This document shows, piece by piece, positions 2,310 through 8,112 of a stretch of DNA of 8,179 bases (positions are counted from its first letter, which is position 1; the number at the start of each line of letters is the position of its first letter). A model generated the notes under the pieces. That model was given only the letters and a program-made list of their open reading frames with translations. It was not told the DNA's origin and ran no database searches. This DNA is from Candidatus Cloacimonadota bacterium. Lineage in GTDB: Bacteria > Cloacimonadota > Cloacimonadia > JGIOTU-2 > B8-G9. The DNA lies in NCBI GenBank assembly GCA_003647765.1, contig QMNM01000049.1:1-8179 (forward strand). Direction: 5' to 3'. A program made the translations under genes and the position numbers.

Positions 2310-3242
2310 TTAAAGCCGGTATCCTATTGATATTTGATGAATCAGTCCTAATTCGCCAAAAGAAGCAGTTGCATAATCAAACTGATAATTCTTCCAATAT
2401 ATGCCAAATCCTATTGACATTCCAGCTACAATATCCCAATTTGAGCCGACTTTCCAATCACTTGCATTTGACTTATACCCAGCTCTTAAAGCAAAAAATG
2501 GATATATCTGCCTTTCATAGCCAACTTTAAAAATAAAATTATAATCAAAGGGCTTAACAAGTTCAGCAGTAACAGTATGCACTGATTTTCTCCAGCCAAA
2601 ACCAGCAGACGCAGTAATTGGTAAATCCTCTTCTTTATCAATAAAAGGTGAAAGTTGTTTGCCTAAATTTTTCAAAGTGATGCCTAATTTCAAATTCTTA
2701 TTTGTTGTCTGATGCATAATACCAATGTCTGCTGCTATTGCTTGTGAGGAATATTCCTCAATGGACTCCGTTATAAATTTAATATTTATACCCCAGTTAA
2801 GCACTTCTGAACGATATTGCCCAAATGATACACCCAAAAGAATATCATAAGCACCAAATGTGCCATCTTCTTTATAACCACCATCATCTATCGTTTTTAT
2901 CATTTCTCCACTTGTAATGAACTTTGAGAATGCGGCAACACCAATCTTGTCAGTAAGTGGCATAACATAGCTAGCAGAGCCACCATTAAAGCCCTCAAAA
3001 TAGTTTAAATATGTAATATTCAATTCTTTATTTTCCACTTGTGGAAGTCCAGCAGGATTCCAAAATGGTGCTAAAGCATCATTAGCTAATCCAGTATATG
3101 CCCCTGCCAAAGCAGTTGCTCTTGCACCATACGATACTTTCATAAAATTAAAAGATGTTGTTCCTGCATTGTCATTACTCGCAAGTAATGATGATATGAG
3201 CCACAAAAACACACAACAGTACACGAAAAATGCTTTTTTCAT
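2310..3242 (-). CDS. PorV/PorQ-type outer-membrane beta-barrel protein
   Basis: This 310-aa exported protein begins with a signal peptide (MKKAFFVY... hydrophobic core to about residue 21, LLA-SND). The mature N-terminus has the hallmark of the PorV/PorQ family within the FadL-like barrel superfamily: F-MKVSYGARATALAGAYTG (residues 33-51), then ANDALAPFWNPAGL (53-66). The rest alternates short beta strands and loops, with repeated patterns such as KIGVAAF, LGITLKNLGKQ and LRAGYKS, and ends in a terminal barrel strand LIHQISIGYRL. It should form a barrel in the outer membrane. PorV itself works in type IX secretion, but no other such genes are here, so export or transport of another substrate is equally possible. 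ATGA overlap with the upstream EIIA gene, and an SD (AGGG) inside that gene's last codons, indicate coupled translation. The signal-peptide DNA is almost identical to that of the 820-aa barrel gene. Confidence 0.88.
   Translation of the reverse strand: MKKAFFVYCCVFLWLISSLLASNDNAGTTSFNFMKVSYGARATALAGAYTGLANDALAPFWNPAGLPQVENKELNITYLNYFEGFNGGSASYVMPLTDKIGVAAFSKFITSGEMIKTIDDGGYKEDGTFGAYDILLGVSFGQYRSEVLNWGINIKFITESIEEYSSQAIAADIGIMHQTTNKNLKLGITLKNLGKQLSPFIDKEEDLPITASAGFGWRKSVHTVTAELVKPFDYNFIFKVGYERQIYPFFALRAGYKSNASDWKVGSNWDIVAGMSIGFGIYWKNYQFDYATASFGELGLIHQISIGYRL
3198..3242 (-). repeat. Signal-peptide segment shared with the 820-aa barrel gene (copy 1)
   Basis: The first 45 bases of the PorV/PorQ-type gene match the first 45 of the 820-aa gene (6323-6279) at 40 positions. 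The shared core reads TTTTTyGTGTACTkTTGTG then TTTTGTGGCT. Its end also resembles the minus-strand arm TTGTGTTTCTTCGTGGCT of the dispersed repeat at 3752-3817. The two mature proteins are otherwise unrelated. Confidence 0.7.
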
Positions 3243-3709
3243 TTTTCCCTCTCATTATCAAATTTTTGAAAAATACTCATTACTTTATCTCTATCTTTTG
3301 CCTGATTAAGCAATTGTCTATTTTGTTCAATTGCAGAAAGACGGGAAATAGCACCTAACAGCTGATTATAAATCTTATCTCTTGTTTCAGGAATAGCAAT
3401 GAGAAAAACTAAAGACACTGGCTTGTCATCAATAGAATCAAAATCAATTGGGTCTGAAAGAGTAAGAAAAGAAAATTTCAACTCTTTTACTGCTGAACTA
3501 CTACCGTGTGGAATGGCAACTCCATAACCAATGCCTGTACTCATAATATTTTCCCTCTCCTGCACTGCATTATAATACTCATCAGCATTACTGACATAAT
3601 TTGCATTAACAAGCATGTGTAAAGAACGAATAATTGCCTCATTCTTATCTTTAACTTTCTGTTGGACATCTATCAATTGCCTTGATACATAATTACAGAT
3701 TTTTACCAT
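3239..3709 (-). CDS. PTS EIIA type-2 domain protein (PtsN-like)
   Basis: This 156-aa protein is a single fructose/mannitol-type PTS IIA domain. Residues 51-69 carry the family motif ERENIMSTGIGYGVAIPHG, in which His68 is the expected phospho-acceptor. PVSLVFLIAIPE (about 97-108) and LLGAISRLSA (about 117-126) are the later conserved strands and helix. It has no fused EIIB or EIIC domain and no sugar permease is near, so a regulatory role of the PtsN (EIIA-Ntr) kind is more likely than sugar uptake; that is inference. It is cytoplasmic. ATG 3709 fits the family length. An AAGG lies 11 bases upstream, a weak site. Its stop overlaps the start of the PorV/PorQ-type gene by ATGA, which ties a phospho-relay protein to an outer-membrane protein. 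The motif GTTTGCTATA lies 20 bp upstream. Confidence 0.9.
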   Translation of the reverse strand: MVKICNYVSRQLIDVQQKVKDKNEAIIRSLHMLVNANYVSNADEYYNAVQERENIMSTGIGYGVAIPHGSSSAVKELKFSFLTLSDPIDFDSIDDKPVSLVFLIAIPETRDKIYNQLLGAISRLSAIEQNRQLLNQAKDRDKVMSIFQKFDNEREK

Positions 3710-3728
3710 CAGATTGAGACCTTATTTC

Positions 3729-3738
3729 TATAGCAAAC
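3729..3738 (-). promoter_or_regulatory. GTTTGCTATA motif upstream of the EIIA gene (copy 1)
   Basis: GTTTGCTATA ends 20 bp before ATG 3709. The same 10-mer sits 27 bp before the first gene of the three-gene envelope operon, and 12 of 13 bases match when extended (GTkGTTTGCTATA). The distance fits a -10 region (TGCTATA resembling an extended -10). No clear -35 box accompanies it. Confidence 0.35.
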
Positions 3739-3751
3739 CACAAAAAATTTT

Positions 3752-3817
3752 TAGCCACGAAGAAACACAAGGCGTAGAGCATAAAGGAACACCAAGATTA
3801 TTTTTCTCTCTGTGGCA
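3752..3817. repeat. Degenerate dispersed inverted repeat (GCCACGAAGAAACAC...TCTGTGGCA)
   Basis: The ends TAGCCACGAAGAAA (3752-3765) and TTTCTCTCTGTGGCA (3803-3817) are imperfect reverse complements and enclose about 37 bp. The phrase is like a family of intergenic repeats I recall from many uncultured bacterial genomes, but the copy number cannot be judged here. On the minus strand it is followed within a few bases by AAAAATTTTTT, so the folded repeat might also terminate transcription of the 820-aa gene. Confidence 0.55.
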
Positions 3818-3860
3818 ATGAAAAATATTGTGTGGAATGCTTGAACAATAACAAAGAATT

Positions 3861-6323
3861 CTAAAATTTTTGACTAATCTTTAATCTAAATTCTGTTTGA
3901 TTATAATTCCTTTCTGCAAGAGTACTATTCTTATATAATAAATAAGCCAATTCTCCGCTTATATATGTTTCGGTTCTAAATAAATTGAATTTATGATTAC
4001 CACCTAAAGTAAAACAATTCTTTGTCTGCTTCTCATCTCCACCATAATTGAGCAAATGATAATCAAAGTAAGTATTTAACTTGTCTGGAATAAAACTATA
4101 TTCCTCACGAAAAGAGAAACTCAGATAATCATTGCTTGTTTTATCAATATAAGTCCTCTGGGAATCTGTATCAGCATTTTCAATGATTTTAGGTTTATCC
4201 TCTGTTTTCATATAACCAATTGAAAATTTAGATGATAAAGGGATGTCATTAAAATTAGAATTTATACTGAATAGATAATTCTGGGAATTAGAATCAAAAG
4301 ATTTCTTTTCATTATCCACTGAATTAGAATTAGATATGCTTATAGAAAATCGTGTTTTGGCATATCTTGTAGTTGGCATTTCATAAGAAGTGCTAAAACC
4401 AATTGTATTATTAAACTGGTCAATTGAATATTCCGAGTATGAAGTATCAGCAACTGACTTTTTTCTTGTAGATTGTTGATAATTTATATTTACACAAGGC
4501 AAATATACGTCTTTTACTAATGGGAAATAGTTCATACTACAATAAAAACCTTTGGAATTAGTAGTCCCAAACTTGTTATCATTCAAATTATCCTGATAGC
4601 TGTTATAGCCAGCTGTCAGAGAAAGTTGGTTATTTAGCAAACGATAAGTATTACTAATATTTATACCAGCAATATCCTTTTGTAAATAAGGATTAGCTAA
4701 TGAATTATAACTGCCGCCAACATAAGAGTATCTTATATTTAGCAAATTGTTATAGAAGAAAGCACGAGTATAAATTTCACCTGCTATAGAATTTAAACTC
4801 GGTATTAACGGCACCATATGCTCATTTATCACAAATATATCTTCTACACTGGAAGGAGTAAATGGCAATTCAACATCTAAAGTATCCAAATCTTGTTCGC
4901 TGATAGCACCTGTGCTAATATCATTATTAAGTATGCTTGTGGAAATCTCTGCTCCAAAGACCAATTTCTGTCTAAATAATGCTAATTTACTGTCAATGCT
5001 AAAAATAATATTATCTTTTGGATTAGTAGCAAATTTTTCCGAAGACACATCATCTTTTACTTTAAGGAATGCCAATCCAAAAGCCAATTTCCTTTCATTG
5101 CCCAATTGTAATCTCAAACCAAAGCAATTTCTTTTATATGAACCTTCAATGATAGTTGTATCAACTGGAACAGTATCATAGGGAACCGAAGTTGTATCCA
5201 CGCCATATATAATTTCGTCTCTGCCTTTGATATTCCTTTTGATTTGTCCATAGAAAGAATGCAATTTGATTATTCCATAATCAAAAACGCCGCTGATTCC
5301 ACGCACATTTTTGCCATTTATAGTTGTATTGTTAAATGTCTGAGTATGGTCCCCCAGATGCATACTAAAATGTGGGATATGCATTTCAAAAGCGTATCTA
5401 TTGACAGGTTGTCTGGTCTTACTTTCGTCAGATGAGAGATAAATACGTCCATTATATCTGAACCAATCCTTGCTACCATAGAGATTTAGTCGTCCAAAAT
5501 TTTTCCAATCATTTTGTTCATCATAGTAGTAAGAGCTATCTTGTGCTGATGTAGAGCGGAATCTTGATACAGCATAAAAATCACCATTAACAGAAATTGG
5601 TAGTTTTTGCGTTATCTTTTCGCTCTTAACTTCTACTATCCATTTTTGTGAATCATACACAGAGCCATCATTATTATAAATTATAATTTCAATAGTATGG
5701 ATACCAGGTATTATCCTATCAGGTTTATATACAAGTAGATTACTTGTAATTGTTGCATATCCAGATACATCCATTCCATCAAAGAAAAGTTTGATTGTTT
5801 TTCCTTCTATTTCATCTTCAATTGCAAAGTATGAAATTGCTACAAGAAAATCCCGAGTAGTAAAATTGAACTCATCAGTTGGACTTAGCTTTTTGAATGC
5901 GGATACTGTTGATTTTATTATTACTGGTTTTAATTCTACCTGATATGGATTATTCATAGCATCGTTTTTTGGCAGCGTAAATTCCTCTCCATTTATTAAA
6001 TGTATTCGGAAATAATATTCTATTCTCTGGTCAATAAAATCTCCTGGAATTTCTGCCTTATAATAAGGATTCATTTCACTACCATTCAGCATTTCTATTT
6101 GTATGTAGCCCAGATTGGCTTTTTTATAAAATAGATATACTTCTTTTATCTGGTCTAATCCACTAAATACATTTAATTCTACATAAAACGACTTAGCTTT
6201 TTCTATAGATTCAGGAGGAATATGATTAAGTTGTGGAAGTTCATCCGCTTGTAACATTATACTCGTAATTATAGAAGTAAGCCACAAAATCGCACAAAAG
6301 TACACAAAAAATGCTTTTTTCAT
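3861..6323 (-). CDS. Large outer-membrane beta-barrel protein with N-terminal Ig-like domains
   Basis: This 820-aa exported protein has a signal peptide (hydrophobic to about residue 24, LQA-DE). Residues about 30-135 look like a beta-sandwich (FYVELNVFSG, EVYLFYKK, IEYYFRIHLINGEEFTLP). Residues about 145-233 form a second Ig-like unit (FLVAISYFAIED, IKLFFDGMDVSG, GIHTIEIIIYNNDGSVYDSQ). From about residue 247 to the end it alternates aromatic-rich beta strands and polar loops. Examples are FGRLNLYGSKDWFRYNGRIY, an FSMHLGDHTQTFNNTTINGK turn at 319-338, and FYGQIKRN. It ends EFRLKISQKF with a terminal phenylalanine, as outer-membrane barrels do. I infer a barrel with periplasmic sandwich domains; the cargo is unknown. 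It follows the FecR-domain gene after 9 bp, with SD GAGG 4 bases before the ATG. It is the last gene of the three-gene operon. Confidence 0.8.
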   Translation of the reverse strand: MKKAFFVYFCAILWLTSIITSIMLQADELPQLNHIPPESIEKAKSFYVELNVFSGLDQIKEVYLFYKKANLGYIQIEMLNGSEMNPYYKAEIPGDFIDQRIEYYFRIHLINGEEFTLPKNDAMNNPYQVELKPVIIKSTVSAFKKLSPTDEFNFTTRDFLVAISYFAIEDEIEGKTIKLFFDGMDVSGYATITSNLLVYKPDRIIPGIHTIEIIIYNNDGSVYDSQKWIVEVKSEKITQKLPISVNGDFYAVSRFRSTSAQDSSYYYDEQNDWKNFGRLNLYGSKDWFRYNGRIYLSSDESKTRQPVNRYAFEMHIPHFSMHLGDHTQTFNNTTINGKNVRGISGVFDYGIIKLHSFYGQIKRNIKGRDEIIYGVDTTSVPYDTVPVDTTIIEGSYKRNCFGLRLQLGNERKLAFGLAFLKVKDDVSSEKFATNPKDNIIFSIDSKLALFRQKLVFGAEISTSILNNDISTGAISEQDLDTLDVELPFTPSSVEDIFVINEHMVPLIPSLNSIAGEIYTRAFFYNNLLNIRYSYVGGSYNSLANPYLQKDIAGINISNTYRLLNNQLSLTAGYNSYQDNLNDNKFGTTNSKGFYCSMNYFPLVKDVYLPCVNINYQQSTRKKSVADTSYSEYSIDQFNNTIGFSTSYEMPTTRYAKTRFSISISNSNSVDNEKKSFDSNSQNYLFSINSNFNDIPLSSKFSIGYMKTEDKPKIIENADTDSQRTYIDKTSNDYLSFSFREEYSFIPDKLNTYFDYHLLNYGGDEKQTKNCFTLGGNHKFNLFRTETYISGELAYLLYKNSTLAERNYNQTEFRLKISQKF
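6279..6323 (-). repeat. Signal-peptide segment shared with the PorV/PorQ-type gene (copy 2)
   Basis: This is the counterpart of 3198-3242: 40 of 45 bases match, encoding MKKAFFVYFCAILWL against MKKAFFVYCCVFLWL. The similarity is of DNA, including third positions, and stops after the hydrophobic core, so it looks like shared repeat or conversion-derived sequence rather than common ancestry of the whole genes. Confidence 0.7.
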
Positions 6324-6332
6324 TTATCCTCA

Positions 6333-7010
6333 CTATTTATAATAGATTCTCAATTTTTTCAATTCTCCATTTTCATCTTCTAATTCAATTTCCAAAATAT
6401 TAAGATTTCCTTTTTCAATTTCCTTTTTGATTTCTGGTTTTATCTGTTTAGGCTTTGTATCGGTTATAGTTGGCACTTTGTTTTTTTTGGCAATACCTGT
6501 TTTTCCTTTTGTAATAGTTTTGGCACCAATATCTGTCCTTAATTCCACAATTCCTGATAGAGTAACCACAGTAGTTGTGCCGTCTTCTTTCACATTGGTA
6601 AAGAAGTCAGTTCCTTTTACTGTAGCTACAGAAGTAGGTGTTTCAATTTGGTATGCTCCTTTTTCTCTCTTGACCTTTGACCAGACATCGCCAATTTCTA
6701 AATAGATTTTTTTATCTAATTTTCGTACTTTCTTTTCTGTATTGATAGTTAGTATAGAATTAGAAAACAGCTTTATGATTGCTCCACTATCAACAAAACG
6801 GATAGCTGCTATGGATTGCTCCTTTGATATAAGTTCATCTCCGGAATAAAGTGGTGTCCCACTCTCTATTCTTTGATTATTATCTCCACGCTTCAAAATT
6901 ATCTCGCCTTTAGCAGTTAATACCAAAGCCGAAGGAGAGTTCTCTTTAGCAAGACAGGACAGAAACGATAATAAAAGAAAAACAAACAATAATATGGAAA
7001 ATTTTTTCAT
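6333..7010 (-). CDS. Periplasmic FecR-domain protein
   Basis: This 225-aa exported protein starts with MKKFSILLFVFLLLSFLSC; the cysteine at 19 gives a weak lipobox (FLSC), so it may be a lipoprotein. Residues about 28-160 form a FecR fold: AKGEIILKRG, a GTPLYSGDEL turn, SIAAIRFVDSGAIIKLFSNS (66-85), KIYLEIGDVWSKVKREKG (101-118), then the strongest family signature, QIETPTSVATVKGTDFF (121-137), and TVVTLSGIVELRT. In Fe-uptake systems FecR relays a signal from an outer-membrane transporter to a sigma factor. This copy has no cytoplasmic N-domain or internal membrane helix, so it is a stand-alone periplasmic sensor or scaffold. Its lysine-rich tail (about 180-225) is unlike FecR proper. GGAG lies 5 bases before ATG 7010. 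It sits between a secreted protein and the outer-membrane barrel gene. Confidence 0.85.
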   Translation of the reverse strand: MKKFSILLFVFLLLSFLSCLAKENSPSALVLTAKGEIILKRGDNNQRIESGTPLYSGDELISKEQSIAAIRFVDSGAIIKLFSNSILTINTEKKVRKLDKKIYLEIGDVWSKVKREKGAYQIETPTSVATVKGTDFFTNVKEDGTTTVVTLSGIVELRTDIGAKTITKGKTGIAKKNKVPTITDTKPKQIKPEIKKEIEKGNLNILEIELEDENGELKKLRIYYK

Positions 7011-7056: not shown

Positions 7057-8112
7057 TCATTCAGTTTCTATTCTCTCTATTTCATACTTACCACTAAGTA
7101 TATCATTAAGAAGATTTACCAATTTTTCAATACTAATTATTTCTCCGTTAAGATAGACATCGCCAGTAGGCGTGAAATCGCCAATAGCAAATTTTTCTTT
7201 ATCAATCATTCCAAGATTTTCCAGATTTTCAATAAAATTAGAGATATTGGCAGATTCTGGACTAATGCCTTCGCTACTTGCAATTTTGAAATTCCACAAA
7301 TTACTTTCAACAGAATTTTCTCCTTGGGTAGTATATATAATACCTTTAATTCGCCATGCATAAGTTCTGTTCACTTTTAATAAAGGAGCATCTGCTGGAT
7401 AGATAAAAATATTAGCATGGATCTGTTCTTTCGTATAAAATGGATTCTTATTTCTAATATCATCAATGGATTCGCCTGACTCAACTTTGAAAACTTCTAA
7501 TGTAAATTCTTGAATATTAGAGAACCAAGAGAATACAGGAAGATTTCCGACAATTTCAGTAGGATTACTACTAAAAGGTGAGCCAGGTGAGATTTGCACT
7601 ATATTAGTGGGATTTATCACCTCAATCTCTGCTGTTATCTGGTCGTAATCTTGACTTTCATCAATTGACATAGCGTATAAAGTAAAACGATAAATACCAG
7701 CAGGGAGCATTCCTGTTTCTAATGCCTGATCTTGCAAATCTTTCCTCAAAATATCATTCCAATCGCCTGCTATTTCAACATTTGAACTTATTATATCACG
7801 ATTAGAAATTATAATACTATTTCCAGAATTGAAAGAATATACTTTCTGAATTGTCCCATTTTCCTTTGTTAGCAGTTCTCCATATTTATCAGAGTTTATT
7901 TCCAATGCTAATTTAAAATCATTTATTGTACCCTTTTTCGTGATTTTGATTTTGAATAGCAATGGTTGTGATAACGGATGGTCAGGGTCAAAACTTGCAG
8001 TATAGAATACTTGATATGGACCCTGATATAGAATACTAAGTTTAATTGGTTTTTCGCCATAAACTAAATGAAAGGAAAAAATCAGTAATATTAACACGAT
8101 TATTTTTTTCAT
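7057..8112 (-). CDS. Secreted or periplasmic beta-rich protein of unknown function
   Basis: This 351-aa protein has a clear signal peptide (MKKIIVLILLIFSFHLVYG, cleavage near residue 19). Residues about 22-170 look like a beta-sandwich, with PLLFKIKITKKGTINDFKLA and GMLPAGIYRFTLYAMSIDES. Residues about 188-277 form a fibronectin-III-like unit: LPVFSWFSN, FTLEVFKVESGESIDDIR, FIYPADAPLLKVNRTYAWRI and NLWNFKI. The C-terminal 60 residues carry a compact GDFTPTGDVYLNGEIISIEK segment before a short helix and an acidic tail. I do not recognise a named family. By position it opens the operon with FecR-domain and barrel genes, so a role in an envelope complex is likely. A strong SD (AAGGAG, 5 bases before ATG 8112) supports the start, and GTTTGCTATA lies 27 bp upstream. 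Confidence 0.8.
   Translation of the reverse strand: MKKIIVLILLIFSFHLVYGEKPIKLSILYQGPYQVFYTASFDPDHPLSQPLLFKIKITKKGTINDFKLALEINSDKYGELLTKENGTIQKVYSFNSGNSIIISNRDIISSNVEIAGDWNDILRKDLQDQALETGMLPAGIYRFTLYAMSIDESQDYDQITAEIEVINPTNIVQISPGSPFSSNPTEIVGNLPVFSWFSNIQEFTLEVFKVESGESIDDIRNKNPFYTKEQIHANIFIYPADAPLLKVNRTYAWRIKGIIYTTQGENSVESNLWNFKIASSEGISPESANISNFIENLENLGMIDKEKFAIGDFTPTGDVYLNGEIISIEKLVNLLNDILSGKYEIERIETE

Follow-up and report, generated by a model that had tools for sequence, protein, structure and literature searches.

A short dispersed repeat has very probably come to lie in frame after the start codons of two neighbouring envelope genes of an uncultured Cloacimonadota bacterium, where it replaced part of the hydrophobic core of each signal peptide. 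A stray intergenic repeat would thereby have been turned into protein code, namely into the part of both export signals that targets the membrane. Signal peptides change rapidly in evolution, and it is seldom possible to trace where they came from. In this case, the replacement of a signal core by repeat DNA can be tested, since the donor DNA, the ancestral signals and the unchanged gene context are all visible. The window, that is, the whole stretch of 8,179 nucleotides that was analyzed, belongs to a fragmented assembly (1.97 Mb in 360 contigs, 88.8% complete), which represents the sole species of its family among the genomes compared.

The two genes encode a PorV-like protein and an 820-aa exported protein (Table 1). 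Orthologues of the PorV-like protein were found in all 40 genomes searched. The 820-aa protein matched no family in any library searched; its C-terminal F and its gene neighbours suggest that it may reside at the outer membrane. The order of the 351-aa, FecR-domain and 820-aa genes is kept in most relatives, and the adjacency of the EIIA and PorV-like genes was observed in 15 relatives across the wider class. Elsewhere in the window, at 692-1496, a HEPN domain gene adjoins a nucleotidyltransferase (MNT) gene, which together form a typical toxin-antitoxin-like pair. The window had no match in Rfam, and no description of the repeat was found in the literature, whether by name or by sequence string.

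Table 1. Genes, repeat-derived segments and related elements of the window
Feature	Position	Strand	Evidence or remark
PorV/PorQ-family protein, 310 aa, start MKKAFFVYCCVFLWLISSLLAS	2310..3242	-	NCBIfam NF033709, 149 bits (cutoff 90)
Repeat-derived segment, PorV-like signal peptide (FFVYCCVFLWLISS)	3189..3230	-	41/42 nt identical to intergenic copy G002:C2 (L221), E=1.4e-14
30-nt repeat core, PorV-like gene	3199..3228	-	2 mismatches
PTS EIIA gene	3239..3709	-	Pfam PF00359; stop codon overlaps PorV-like ATG
Longer related dispersed element, between 820-aa and EIIA genes, TATAGCAAACCACAAAAAATTTTTAGCCAC ... GTGGCAATGAAAAATATTGTGTGGAATGCT	3729..3842	.	Best other copy 84% over 115 nt
820-aa exported protein, probable outer-membrane protein, start MKKAFFVYFCAILWLTSIITSIMLQA	3861..6323	-	Orthologues in 27/40 genomes searched; adjoins FecR gene
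Repeat-derived segment, 820-aa signal peptide (FFVYFCAILWL)	6277..6313	-	34/37 nt identical to intergenic copy C314 (L241), E=3.8e-9
30-nt repeat core, 820-aa gene	6280..6309	-	1 mismatch
FecR-domain protein, directly upstream of 820-aa gene, conserved neighbour	6333..7010	-	Pfam PF04773
351-aa exported protein, conserved neighbour, ordinary signal peptide MKKIIVLILLIFSFHLVYG	7057..8112	-	

An initial annotation of this DNA reported that the first 45 coding bases of the two genes agree at 40 positions, and recounting gave the same number. Among the direct-repeat families of the window, the pair 3199-3248 and 6280-6329 is the strongest, with 90% identity over 50 nt. As had also been claimed, the identity includes synonymous sites: where both genes encode the same residue with a degenerate codon, 8 of 10 codons are identical, compared to 5.0 expected (P=0.04). 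The clear match stops at GTGGCT, and gapped extension past this point was marginal (P=0.017). With codons drawn independently for these two peptides, 34.6 ± 1.9 positions were identical, and 40 or more at P=0.004, indicating that the observed 40 are unusual, not overwhelming. When synonymous codons were resampled, the repeat core described below was matched equally well or better in 5% of cases for the PorV-like gene (P=0.05) and in 0.4% for the 820-aa gene (P=0.004). Because T-rich hydrophobic codons belong to any signal peptide, such codon-level tests alone are moderately significant. The codon test alone would not decide the question, which is settled by comparing the segment with the remainder of the genome and with related genomes.

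The core sequence TTTTGTGTnnTTTTGTGTnnTTTTGTGGCT was searched in the window's own genome with up to three mismatches, and the reversed pattern served as the control. This gave 60 matches, distributed 33 to 27 over the two strands and including both gene starts, compared to 0 for the control. Many dispersed, near-identical copies, a trait of MITEs, are therefore present, and the resemblance to a dispersed repeat that had been proposed for the shared segment was borne out. In a census with a stricter pattern, 13 of the 18 genomes from the window's order contained the repeat, whereas the 106 genomes searched from the rest of the phylum gave no match. By these matches, the repeat is a dispersed sequence of ~36 bp, apparently specific to this order of Cloacimonadota, and the segment shared by the gene starts belongs to it. 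An inverted partner arm lies near 7 of the 59 copies scored, and several copies in relatives are palindromic. Target-site duplications of at least 8 nt flank 3 of 55 copies against a null of 0.9%, which is barely above chance; none was seen by eye at either signal-peptide copy. By these two traits, the repeat is at best a candidate MITE.

The genomic context was scored for 44 own-genome copies. A gene start lies on the GGCT side of 26 of these, including 17 within 54 nt, indicating that copies often sit where an N-terminal change is possible. With GTGGCT facing the gene, that is, in sense orientation, these 26 starts compare with 12 gene ends on that side, and the bias was absent in the loci of relatives (17 starts versus 17 ends). 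Three intergenic copies, L066 (C94), L067 (C149) and L068 (C160), carry ATGAAAAATAGAACA before the core; AATGAGTG-type tandem units precede ATGAAAAATAGAACA in L066 and L068, and L067 contains a gene-less MKNRTFFVFFCVILWL reading. Behind the intergenic copies of C94, C149 and C160 with ATGAAAAAT before the core, no gene was found in that frame.

The identity of both signal-peptide segments with intergenic copies of the repeat was observed directly (Table 1). For the PorV-like gene, the match extends beyond the segment common to both genes and includes CATATCATCA after GTGGCT. Its partner belongs to G002, a genome of another family, where it lies between membrane-fusion-protein and RND-type genes (named by eye). 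The partner of the 820-aa gene is an own-genome copy and the best match of this gene outside the window. On the T-rich strand of 55 own-genome copies, two of the three frames are open in 51-52, reading FCVFLCNFVA or FVYFCVILWL with a mean Kyte-Doolittle hydropathy of 2.2-2.4, and both genes use the second of these. The captured cores have a hydropathy of 2.1-2.4, compared to 2.4-2.6 for the cores of orthologues. Both signal peptides further show the traits of Sec signals, in which a positive n-region, MKKA, is followed by the hydrophobic core and then by LLAS or MLQA, with a small residue at -1. Since an uncharged hydrophobic run is encoded in the frame used, directly after MKK, the repeat would be tolerated at this position, and the repeat-derived segments probably act as export signals.

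Next, the two starts were compared with those of orthologues. Among the orthologues fetched, starts were readable for 25 of the 820-aa protein and 28 of the PorV-like protein. All of them have ordinary signal peptides, with neither repeat DNA nor the FFVYFC peptide, and differ from the window's genes in protein as well as in DNA; the signal-peptide change is thus lineage-specific. In a peptide search through the 18 genomes of the order, only the two window genes begin with MKKAFFVY, and no long gene outside the window opens with this sequence. Other repeat-built signal peptides were sought in the order and none was found; the G002 copy, whose 15-aa reading is 100% identical, is intergenic.

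The orthologues keep the same gene neighbours despite their unrelated signal peptides, and the c-regions of the window's genes are still similar to those of relatives (SSLLAS versus SSLFAIS; SIMLQA versus TTMLIA). The EIIA gene ends in a stop codon that overlaps the PorV-like ATG, the FecR stop and the 820-aa ATG are spaced just like those of the nearest relative, and the neighbours are conserved, indicating that starts and mature proteins are ancestral and that only the stretch between them has changed. Overall length stays nearly constant, indicating that the old core was not merely extended but replaced, or trimmed at a later stage; a simple insertion alone is insufficient as an explanation. 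Furthermore, the dispersal of the repeat, together with orthologues that have the same neighbours and unrelated signals, gives the direction of change as from repeat to signal peptide. The suggestion that an intergenic repeat was captured as export-signal codons is thus supported by the many other copies and by orthologue signals that differ at both levels.

We propose that, in this lineage, the ~36 bp repeat would have come to lie in frame just 3′ of two start codons through an insertion or recombination step. In both signal peptides, it would have taken the place of the N-terminal half of the hydrophobic core, the old core being lost, whereas ribosome-binding sites, start codons, cleavage regions and mature proteins would have remained ancestral and both proteins would presumably still be exported. 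An intermediate state was not seen in this comparison, as the assembly is fragmented and 89% complete and the family is represented by one species. A contig search with the 820-aa protein returned no close relatives, and the alignment matches of PorV came only from Cloacimonadota of other families and from more distant phyla.

Whether the repeat was captured twice or once is a question within this explanation. The repeat may have entered one gene only, after which codons 1-15 would have been copied into the second by gene conversion, which was the other possibility raised in the initial annotation. We give this sub-variant slightly less than an even chance. The two segments share the codon position, the frame, an MKKA start with identical codons and the same AC dinucleotide in a variable position, and the 40/45 identity and the marginal similarity of the tails point the same way. 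However, over 32 nt, the gene starts differ from their nearest intergenic copies by 1 and 2 nt and from each other by 4. Moreover, the 3′ extensions differ, with CATATCATCA of the PorV-like gene agreeing with one repeat subfamily and TTACTTC of the 820-aa gene resembling another.

Three further readings would deny the capture itself. Many copies of the repeat sit just upstream of gene starts, and the segment might accordingly be untranslated leader DNA with the true starts lying downstream. This is very unlikely given the overlap of the EIIA stop with the PorV-like ATG and the conserved FecR spacing; in addition, neither protein would keep a signal peptide without the segment. Convergence would mean that T-rich hydrophobic codons are favoured in signals and that the match to the repeat is due to chance. 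The synonymous resampling leaves some room for it, particularly at the PorV-like gene, but 41/42 identity to an intergenic copy with 0 control matches, the lack of any such signal peptide among the orthologues and the occurrence of two cases in one gene cluster make it extremely unlikely. The least probable reading reverses the direction, taking the intergenic copies as remnants of a signal-peptide gene that was mobile or duplicated. A few intergenic copies do carry ATGAAAAATAGAACA or ATGAAAAATAAC before the core, as this would predict; however, the repeat occurs across an order whose orthologues lack it, some copies have inverted partner arms, and nothing of the mature genes follows the repeat. 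We therefore retain capture of the repeat by the two signal peptides as the preferred explanation.

The initial annotation had compared the shared core with the minus strand of a repeat arm at 3752-3770. This likeness is real (13/19 and 15/19 identical, counted by eye), but the short repeat matches the gene starts much more closely. The stretch 3752-3817 is part of the longer related element between the 820-aa and EIIA genes, which has 54 own-genome matches at E<=10, inverted ends (TATAGCA..CCACA / TGTGG..TGCTATA) and a variable interior with GCATTACGC-type runs. Because its match to the gene starts is weaker than that of the short repeat, it was rejected as the direct donor.

The same repeat was also observed inside other proteins, where its A-rich strand reads SHKITQKNTK or LATKLHKKTQ. 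One in-frame copy (L137; G000:C17:7076-7105) lies within an AddB/PD-(D/E)XK-like nuclease, named by eye, as ...MLENGV-SHKITQKTTK-RDYGVK-IDEI.... This insert of 15 aa (45 nt) is flanked by the 9-bp direct repeat TTACTCCAT, and six orthologues are gapped there. Another copy (L134; G000:C258:1001-1030) reads ...LATKLHKKTQK... in a nucleotide-cyclase/ATPase-like protein, also named by eye, which has ~22-24 extra residues compared to one orthologue and one paralogue. Weaker in-frame cases were seen in long ORFs at L150 (C95:5397-5426) and L172 (C29:8006-8035), and at L140 (C19:7753-7782), where the copy forms the C-terminal tail of a protein that by eye looks like a 2-oxoacid oxidoreductase beta subunit. 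A broader scheme would have a mobile repeat of ~36 bp that, with a 9-bp target duplication, adds 45 nt, a multiple of three. Its peptides would be usable from both strands, as a hydrophobic membrane signal or a lysine-rich loop, and it would have entered conserved proteins on several occasions, including two independent insertions, both as a signal core, in one cluster. We regard this scheme as conceivable and rather doubtful.

The kind of event described here is already known, since the Rickettsia palindromic elements (RPE) and the Yersinia RU-2 element provide precedents; MITE-like elements lying in frame in bacterial protein genes, above all RPE, have been reviewed (PMC2229807). In Yersinia, the YPAL/RU-2 element makes up a portion of the signal peptide predicted for YPO1552 (Delihas 2007, PMC2229807). 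The present repeat and RU-2 are both small and dispersed, and in both an open hydrophobic frame supplies part of a predicted signal peptide. However, RU-2 is ~168 bp long and gave rise to a new 144-aa orphan protein (PMC2229807), whereas a repeat core of ~36 bp would here have replaced the hydrophobic core in two conserved genes whose orthologues can be compared. Like RPE (Ogata 2000, reviewed in PMC2229807), the repeat is dispersed between genes and also lies in frame inside conserved genes whose orthologues lack the insert, as observed for the AddB-like and cyclase-type proteins and for the two signal peptides. In contrast to RPE, which are stem-loops of 105-146 bp, the Cloacimonadota repeat is shorter, mostly single-armed and from an unrelated host, the two being likened by description, and its two strands give peptides of opposite character. 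The in-frame fusions of ERIC/IRU elements (reviewed in PMC2229807) resemble the present case in that element codons supply a membrane segment; they differ in element and host, and they make putative inner-membrane proteins. New here are a family of short repeats from Cloacimonadota, two conserved genes whose signal cores were replaced while orthologues still display the ancestral form, and the opposite character of the peptides read from the two strands. These strand-dependent peptides suggest a rule of tolerance for such elements, with the hydrophobic reading accepted in signals and the hydrophilic reading inside soluble domains.
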